Below, one piece after another: positions 14,846 to 60,328 of a stretch of DNA of 64,000 bases. The stretch comes from Candidatus Gastranaerophilales bacterium (GTDB lineage Bacteria > Cyanobacteriota > Vampirovibrionia > Gastranaerophilales > UBA9579): assembly GCA_028689995.1 (NCBI GenBank), contig JAQVCB010000004.1, positions 1 through 64,000 of the forward strand, given 5' to 3'. Every line of letters starts with the position of its first letter. The stretch's first letter is position 1. The notes under the pieces were generated by a model. It saw only the letters and a list, made by a program, of their open reading frames with translations, searched no databases and was not told where the DNA came from. Made by a program: the position numbers and the translations under genes.

Positions 14846-14875
14846 TTAAACAATTTAGAATCTTCTAGTTTCAAG

Positions 14876-14983
14876 GAGTCATCTTGAGCGAAGCGGTAGC
14901 GAAGTCGAAAGATCTTACCAAATTTGAAGTAATTTTATAATGTTGGTAAGATACTTCGATTTCGCTCGGCATGACATTTAAAA
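14876..14983. repeat. S1: REP-like hairpin repeat
   Basis: gtcatcttgagcgaagcggtagcgaagtcgaaagatcttacc...ggtaagatacttcgatttcgctcggcatgac; same as S2. Confidence 0.8.
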
Positions 14984-15162
14984 TAAAAAAAGCCTTTATA
15001 TTTAAAATCCCATTTAAACTACACCTTTTAGATGAAATTTTGCCAAAAGCATCAAGTTTAAAAAAATACTTCCGATATAAAAAATAGGGTCATATCATGA
15101 CTTTTAGTTTTTTATTATTAAAATTCTAAGTATGAAATTAAGAATGGTGAAGAGAAGGTAAG

Positions 15163-15404: not shown

Positions 15405-15525
15405 CATTGATACTGGATCATCGCCCCAACTTTCAGCCTCAGTTCGCTTTCGCTTTCTAAGGTCGGCTACGGAAAAATTCTAATTTTTTGGAAAAATTGA
15501 ATTTTTCCGTAGCCTCTATAGCAAC
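15405..15525 (-). repeat. E9: short member of the structured element family
   Basis: Perfect 16-bp hairpin GGCTACGGAAAAATTC(15465-15480)/GAATTTTTCCGTAGCC(15499-15514) followed on the minus strand by GACCTTAGAAAGCGAAAGCG. Confidence 0.7.
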
Positions 15526-20634: not shown

Positions 20635-20812
20635 AGGAGACCGCTCAATGACTATAATTTATATAAAAAAACTAAGATTTGCGGTCGACCCTTGTAAAAG
20701 CGAAAGATGTGCAGAGCGGGTTTTGTCCGGTCGTAGCGGCTGTAGGCTAGATATAAAAACCAATAATTTGCATCAGTTTTAATAGGGTGGTTTTATTGGC
20801 GCCCTTACTGCA
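20635..20812 (+). repeat. E10: member of the structured element family between ftsH and glutamate synthase
   Basis: GACCGC(20639-20644)...GCGGTC(20681-20686) followed by GACCCTTGTAAAAGCGAAAG; second helix CCAATAA...TTATTGG. Confidence 0.55.
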
Positions 20813-42656: not shown

Positions 42657-42764
42657 GGAGTCATCTTGAGTGGAGCTATAGCGGAGTCGAAAGATCTTAC
42701 CAATTTTGGAGTAATCTTACAATATTGGTAAGATGCCTCGACTTCGTTCGGCATGACAATAACG
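42657..42764. repeat. S2: REP-like hairpin repeat
   Basis: gtcatcttgagtggagctatagcggagtcgaaagatcttacc ... ggtaagatgcctcgacttcgttcggcatgac. Confidence 0.8.
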
Positions 42765-43166
42765 AGAGTTGTCATGCCGCACTTGATGCGGAATCTATTC
42801 AACTTTCAAGTTTAAACAATAATTTGTAGGTATAAAACACTATCTTTTAATGTATTACAGCATTTCACCATTAATTTATTTTGGACAGTAGTGGAACTTT
42901 TTATAGAAGCATGCCGAGATGTAATTTTCTGCCAATTATCCATTTATAAAGTCATAATACTCTTTCAATACTTTTCTTCTCATGATGCCTTTATTATTGT
43001 GTTTGCTGGTTTCTCAACTTAAACAATTTATATTTCAAGTTTGTATAAAAATTACAACACTCACTTTAAATCTCACCTAATGTTTGTTATAATAATAATT
43101 ATAATACTTTAAATCTCATTAATCTACAGGATAAATTATCTTACCAGAATTGTTATTATAACAATA

Positions 43167-47136: not shown

Positions 47137-47186
47137 ACATTTCTCTTTATGTTTTCTTTTCAGTATAAAGCCTCTTTGAAGGGAGT

Positions 47187-47348
47187 GTTAACGAAATCAA
47201 AAAAACAAAGTTTTTTGTTTCGTCTTACGTCCCCATCGTCCAGTGTAAAAATGCCGAAAACTGACCGTTTCCGCCATTTTTCACTTTTGTTAGGGTCGTG
47301 TTGACGAATAGAAAATAAGAGCTGTTTAACTATTCGTCAACACTCCCT
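47187..47348 (-). repeat. E7: compact structured element with terminal inverted repeats and flanking TTGAA
   Basis: GGGAGTGTTAACGAA...TTCGTCAACACTCCC; hairpin GTGTTGACGAATAG/CTATTCGTCAACAC. Confidence 0.8.
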
Positions 47349-47362
47349 TGAAGAGCTATAGA

Positions 47363-49443: not shown

Positions 49444-49690
49444 TTATAATTATTTCGTTAATAGTCCCAATCGTTTAGTGTCAAAGTGACGAAAACTTGA
49501 ATGAGTTACATAATACCTCCAGCTCCTGCGTCATTCCCCGCCATCGGTGGGGCGGGCAGCAACTTCAGCATTATTTCACTCCCGCTATCGTAGACCGTTT
49601 CTGTCACTTTTCACATCCGTTAGGGTCGTGGTTACGAATAGAAAATAAGAGCTATTTAATTATTCGTTACCACTTCGTTATTATAAATCA
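49444..49690 (-). repeat. E6: structured element with two concentric modules
   Basis: GTGGTTACGAATA(49628-49640)/TATTCGTTACCAC(49661-49673); minus strand continues GACCCTAACGGATGTGAAAAGTGAC. Confidence 0.8.
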
Positions 49691-56901: not shown

Positions 56902-57123
56902 GGTAGTGGTTAAATTGTAACTGATAAAAACGAAAAATCCTTAAAATGTCATCCGAGCGAAACGAAGTGAAGTCGAAGGATTTTGCTAATAATGTCAGAA
57001 GATAACAGGCGAAAACTGGCAAGATTGCCACGGATTTCTCCAAAATCCTCGCAATGACAAGTGGATGTAAGATAATTAAAATCTAGATTTTAATTATTTA
57101 TCAGTTTGTATTTATCCACTACT
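56902..57123 (-). repeat. R3: inverted copy of R2
   Basis: ggtagtggttaaattgtaactgataaaaacgaaaaatcc ... tttatcagtttgtatttatccactact. Confidence 0.85.
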
Positions 57124-60169: not shown

Positions 60170-60328
60170 AGAGGGTGCGGAAAAATTCAATTTTCGAAGA
60201 AAATTAGGATTTTTTAAACCCGACCATTGGAAAGGTGAAACACATGCACAGCCGCGATGAGCGGGTGGGTTTGTGTGTAACTGGATCATGGAATATACGA
60301 GAAAAATTTTAATTTTTCCGTATATTTA
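60170..60328 (+). repeat. E8: member of the structured element family
   Basis: GGGTGCGGAAAAATTC...GGATTTTTTAAACCC then GACCATTGGAAAGGTGAAACACA...TGTGTGTAACTGGATCATGG. Confidence 0.75.

Follow-up and report, generated by a model that had tools for sequence, protein, structure and literature searches.

The window, i.e., the whole 64,000-nucleotide stretch of DNA that was analysed, contains five related intergenic blocks, E6 to E10 (Table 1), and all five are present letter for letter where the preliminary description had placed them. That description had not recognised the blocks as parts of mobile elements that have terminal repeats, target duplications and empty sites. They are members of a large and apparently undescribed family of small mobile elements in one bacterial order, and no description of such a family was found in the openly available literature.

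Table 1. Parts of the five copies, and further repeats, in the window
Feature	Position	Strand	Remarks
E6 block	49605-49627	-	core 5' strand GACCCTAACGGATGTGAAAAGTG
E6 long copy	49455..49690	-	hairpin, core block, P4 stem with nested module, return strand
E6 P1 hairpin	49628..49673	-	arms GTGGTAACGAATA/TATTCGTAACCAC; 3' arm flush with GACC
E6 return strand	49466..49479	-	ACTAAACGATTGGG; paired in the minimum-free-energy fold
E7 block	47275-47297	-	
E7 complete element	47181..47347	-	bounded by inverted repeats GGGAGTGTTAACGAA/TTCGTCAACACTCCC (I9)
TTGAA left of E7	47176..47180	+	direct repeat, probable target duplication
TTGAA right of E7	47348..47352	+	direct repeat, probable target duplication
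E7 P1 hairpin	47298..47343	-	flush with GACC; I15, 14 nt 100% complementary
E7 core	47231..47297	-	GACCCTAACAAAAGTGAAA, P4 stem, ACTGGACGATGGGG; 17.4 bits against R1, rank 3 in window
E8 block	60222-60244	+	
E8 family-B copy	60172..60325	+	P1 hairpin, core, right hairpin; inverted repeat I14
E8 core	60222..60291	+	37.4 bits, E 2e-5, against R1 (family-A-only model)
E9 block	15445-15464	-	
E9	15426..15515	-	P1 hairpin 15465-15514; shortened core 15426-15464
E10 block	20687-20709	+	
E10 family-A copy	20636..20795	+	right end decayed
E10 core	20687-20754		87.1 bits against R1 (E10 itself one of the 12 training rows)
MITE-like repeats	42682-42782 and 14860-14990		GTCATGCCGAGCGAA / GTAAGATCTTTCGACTTCG type
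Long inverted-repeat element	56903-57122		GTAGTGGTTAAATTG...CACTAC; apparently without relation to the core family

It had been proposed that the 3' arm of a hairpin ends exactly where the letters GACC begin in every copy. When this was examined by a gap-free stem test, the flush hairpin stood for E6 (p = 0.004) and for E7 and E9 (0 of 1000 shuffles in each case), but the test gave no support at E8 (p = 0.61) or E10 (p = 0.22). Compared with dinucleotide shuffles, the predicted folds have z values of -7.46 for E7, -6.0 for E9, -4.7 for E8 and -4.24 for E6. The RNA fold of E10 shows no gain over its shuffles (z = +0.4), and E10 therefore looks decayed; E10 and some other old copies fold poorly now. 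The return strands ACTAAACGATTGGG, ACTGGACGATGGGG and ACTGGATCATGG are indeed related to each other. E9 is a shortened copy, and the match over its 3' half is poor (12 bits).

The genome from which the window comes has a size of 2.99 Mb in 201 contigs. When it is searched with the loosened pattern GACCN{1,3}TWRN{2,5}AARGNGAAA, there are 25 matches and a single one in the reversed control, so that the block occurs far beyond chance, although one of the 25 (L002) is without the context and probably a chance match. The largest family in this genome, called A, includes E10 and has the layout GAGACCGCTGCATAACTATAATTTTTGTTAAAAAGTTAAAATTTGCGGTC, then GACCCTTGTAAAAGCGAAAGCC..GGCTGTAGGCTGGATAT..TAGTTATGCATCAGTCT, its ends being imperfect inverted repeats; sites for its left end, with at most three mismatches, number 64 in the forward and 64 in the reverse direction, as compared with 3 and 7 in the control. 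Family B (E8, L007, L011 and L012) and the group of E6 and E7 have ends unlike those of family A, but the same core. In long copies, including E6, a second recurring module, GCGAAGCGGGAGY-stem-RACTCATTCA, lies within the core-stem loop; the form that it takes in E6, GCGGGAGT..AACTCATTCA, is common to long copies of family A.

A 52-bp near-perfect palindrome (L029, G000:C17:14606-14657), made of the family-A left end only and with TACTAA on both sides, is a mobile solo hairpin. In L021, which lies between convergent genes, a family-A left part is fused with a terminator-like hairpin (CCGGGAAATAATTCCCGG). L075 is the immediate upstream neighbour of a dnaA-like gene on the opposite strand, and L083 that of a gyrB-like gene on the same strand, both genes having been named by eye.

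Taken together, these elements are a dispersed family, mobile but non-autonomous, whose core covaries. Their size is about 110-270 bp, all are below 280 bp, and none contains a sizeable ORF or a transposase gene. Terminal inverted repeats are present in family A and in E7, while none are visible in the copies of other genera. In genomes of family f2, the element starts with TTGTCCGA, continues with a hairpin and ends with ACTAGATTA(N)AT, with no inverted repeat to be seen. Many family-A copies have direct repeats of about 6 bp on either side (e.g., TATTTA, TTTTAT, TAAAAT, TAGTTT), and E7 has one of 5 bp. For other genera, occupied sites can be compared with orthologous empty ones in related genomes (L155/L159, L139/L185, L158/L186, L176/L216 and L180/L190), and the empty sites that are readable give a duplication of 0 to about 2 bp (AT). 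The element at L180 lies between two copies of an 11-bp direct repeat, TTGTATTAAAT, which in the empty site L190 is not duplicated. There are two modes of insertion, one with inverted repeats and 6-bp duplications and, in other genera, one with neither, which argues that the core is not simply the terminal recognition site of one transposase. No orientation bias towards neighbouring genes was found in the window's own genome, where 35 of the 60 downstream genes are codirectional, and a role as 5'-UTR or riboswitch was rejected for this reason.

The exact pattern has no match in 59 relatives and none in viral contigs, and in about 85,000 genomes it has 5 matches, which is near the chance number, with no clear flush hairpin seen by eye. 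For the relatives, a covariance model was needed instead. A model (R1) built from 12 family-A cores only finds the remaining subfamilies: within the window E8, E7 and E9 take ranks 2-4 (Table 1; 12 bits for E9), the scores of E7 and E9 being weak when taken alone. In the window's own genome, R1 hits 65 places at E<=10, about 43 of them below 0.05. Outside it, three strong copies turn up in one genome that belongs to the same family, and a further copy (L111) in another family of the order. By eye, this last copy has the full plan of hairpin, core and hairpin as well as a TCAGTT duplication.

When the model is instead built from all subfamilies (R2), 24 of 383 genomes of the order have matches at E<=0.01. 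The parts that remain fixed across the order are RAAARGYGAR and GAYACTRGAY, which flank a freely changing stem. A pattern of these fixed parts, with free spacer, has about 437 matches in 55 of the 383 genomes and 12 of 52 genera, with up to 52 in one genome and three control matches in all; the total was summed by hand, and lone matches in some genomes may be due to chance. GACC, by contrast, is family-specific and not, as had been suggested, part of a universal motif: the letters next to the hairpin are GGCG, GCAT, GCAA or GTCA in other genera, where AAARGYGAR and GAYACTRGAY nevertheless persist. Three copies in genome G001 (L110, L112 and L113) have a core without GACC and without a flush hairpin; these cores lie between the complementary arms GTCCTG..CAGGAC and GCCAAATTTTTTA..TAAAAAATTTGGC.

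The covariation seen in many genomes strongly supports the central idea of the preliminary description, namely fixed motifs between helices that vary yet always pair, as in a structured RNA or folded single-stranded DNA. Within family A, there are changes on both sides at five pairs, and 91.7% of the cells are paired, as compared with 21-43% when the register is slid. When all subfamilies are taken together, 13 of 15 pairs have changes on both sides, and there are 53 double-change cells versus 16.5 ± 4.1 after shuffling and 8-16 after sliding, but the counts of 13/15 and 53 lean towards the structure, because the alignment was fitted to it. In an independent test, the arms were anchored on the two fixed motifs and the six adjacent positions were paired, with no use of the stem itself. 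Among 29 distinct arms, 88.5% of the pairs are standard, versus 59.6 ± 2.9% (maximum 71.3%) when the arms are shuffled, a procedure that leaves the kinship between copies in place, and pairing in slid registers of the full set is 35-46%. On the read strand the stem has 24 G-U against 8 A-C combinations. This suggests that the read strand is the one that folds, be it as RNA or as single-stranded DNA.

The explanation that we favour, with a probability of about one half, is that the elements are a superfamily of small, non-autonomous mobile elements, the folded single-strand core of which is recognised in trans for mobilisation or processing. In this reading, each copy has a left hairpin (P1), the 5' arm of which lies at or near the end of the element, followed by the conserved core. 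In the core, RAAARGYGAR precedes the variable stem P4/P5, which in many cases has a GRUGA-type loop, and GAYACTRGAY comes after it. The core would work as a folded single strand, either RNA or single-stranded DNA, and a trans-acting factor would recognise it, whereby the element is mobilised or processed. The variable stem would be a scaffold, the sequence of which is irrelevant as long as pairing holds, and the two fixed strands around a short RGY/RCT helix are the proposed recognition site. Recognition of the folded core as a single strand by such a factor appears most likely. That the ends differ between subfamilies means either that the mobiliser has changed or that the core is not what the mobiliser recognises. 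Against this explanation stand these differing ends, the poor folds of E10 and some other old copies, and the fitting of the all-subfamily alignment to the structure. The search, moreover, gave neither an autonomous partner nor a mobilising enzyme: 20 copies read in genome G108 are all short, and the listed pairs of family-A ends in the window's own genome are about 130-340 bp apart, with no gene enclosed by any of them. More tentatively, they may constitute a novel type of mobile element with a structured RNA or single-stranded DNA, in which one conserved core has been carried through the order on several unrelated kinds of transposon ends and is recognised by some factor as a single strand.

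Among the alternatives, the one that survives best, though we regard it as unlikely, is that these are ordinary MITEs, the interior of which is what remains of an insertion sequence, so that a DDE transposase acts through the ends while the fold is incidental or limits read-through transcription. This is in accordance with the terminal repeats, the 6-bp duplications, the small size, the location at AT-rich intergenic sites and the lack of a gene inside, and also with the fold as such, MITE transcripts being typically folded (PMC10969869). Against it stands that the core persists where the ends of subfamilies are unrelated, and also in genera where neither inverted repeats nor large duplications are to be seen, and the compensatory changes are so numerous that selection on the fold is required.

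Another alternative is that the core is an RNA cargo, such as a processing signal, a small ribozyme or a protein-binding RNA, that protects the host or the element after insertion in the manner of an IStron intron. We think this improbable, and place it behind the MITE alternative. In its favour are the strand-specific covariation, with more G-U than A-C, and the existence of elements within genes: at L149 the frame of the gene reads straight through the element, and at L153, where the element splits a gene, the frame resumes beyond it. It is opposed by the absent orientation bias, and no ribozyme in Rfam was matched.

Far less credible is that the copies are REP-like elements, moved as single-stranded DNA hairpins by Y1 (RAYT) transposases. 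A hairpin with a flush conserved tetranucleotide, the many genera without inverted repeats and with little or no duplication, and the presence of Y1 genes in the order would fit. Such genes, however, occur in 19 of the 55 carriers (overlap counted by hand) as compared with 119 of all 383 genomes, which means that there is no association, and mobilisation by RAYT was rejected on this ground; several high-copy genomes are without any Y1 gene, and Y1 loci are not generally flanked by copies, a plausible one being near only 2 of 20 fetched loci. That the cores serve TnpB or IscB nucleases as guide-RNA scaffolds (omega RNA), as might be suggested by an RNA-like fold that is compact and conserved and lies in transposon-like surroundings, can practically be dismissed, being nearly refuted for TnpB, the domain of which occurs in 3 of the 383 genomes and in 1 of the 55 carriers, and Rfam gave no match, HEARO included.

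Small repeats of this kind are usually dismissed as decayed insertion sequences. Here a precise fold has been kept while nearly all of the sequence was replaced, with as many as about 50 copies in a genome, and neither Y1 nor TnpB, the two usual mobilisers tested, tracks the element, which together implies an unknown recognition partner. The richly covarying copies are a ready data set for finding it.

As far as Rfam is concerned, the earlier statement that no known class is recognised is borne out: there was no match at gathering or at relaxed thresholds, with no gathering-level HEARO match in the window or in related loci. With IStrons, HEARO/IscB and the omega RNAs of TnpB the elements would share a structured RNA, here a predicted one, inside a transposable element, but they match neither a group I intron nor HEARO, and TnpB is practically absent from this order. 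REP/BIME repeats with RAYT are likewise scattered hairpins that carry a short conserved motif at their foot, but the core here is more complex and Y1 genes are not associated with it. Rickettsia palindromic elements are selfish palindromes of about 100-150 bp, with unknown mobiliser, that sometimes lie in frame inside genes, as the present element does in one case (L149); compared by description, they differ in that they belong to another lineage, and in that inverted repeats and 6-bp duplications are present in family A. The prokaryotic MITEs (Correia, ERIC, Nezha, QMITE) are also short, AT-rich and intergenic, with no gene inside, with terminal repeats and duplications as in family A and E7, and with a predicted folded transcript. 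Unlike them, the elements described here have subfamilies in other genera that show no inverted repeats, and a core whose conservation and covariation extend over families that have unrelated ends.
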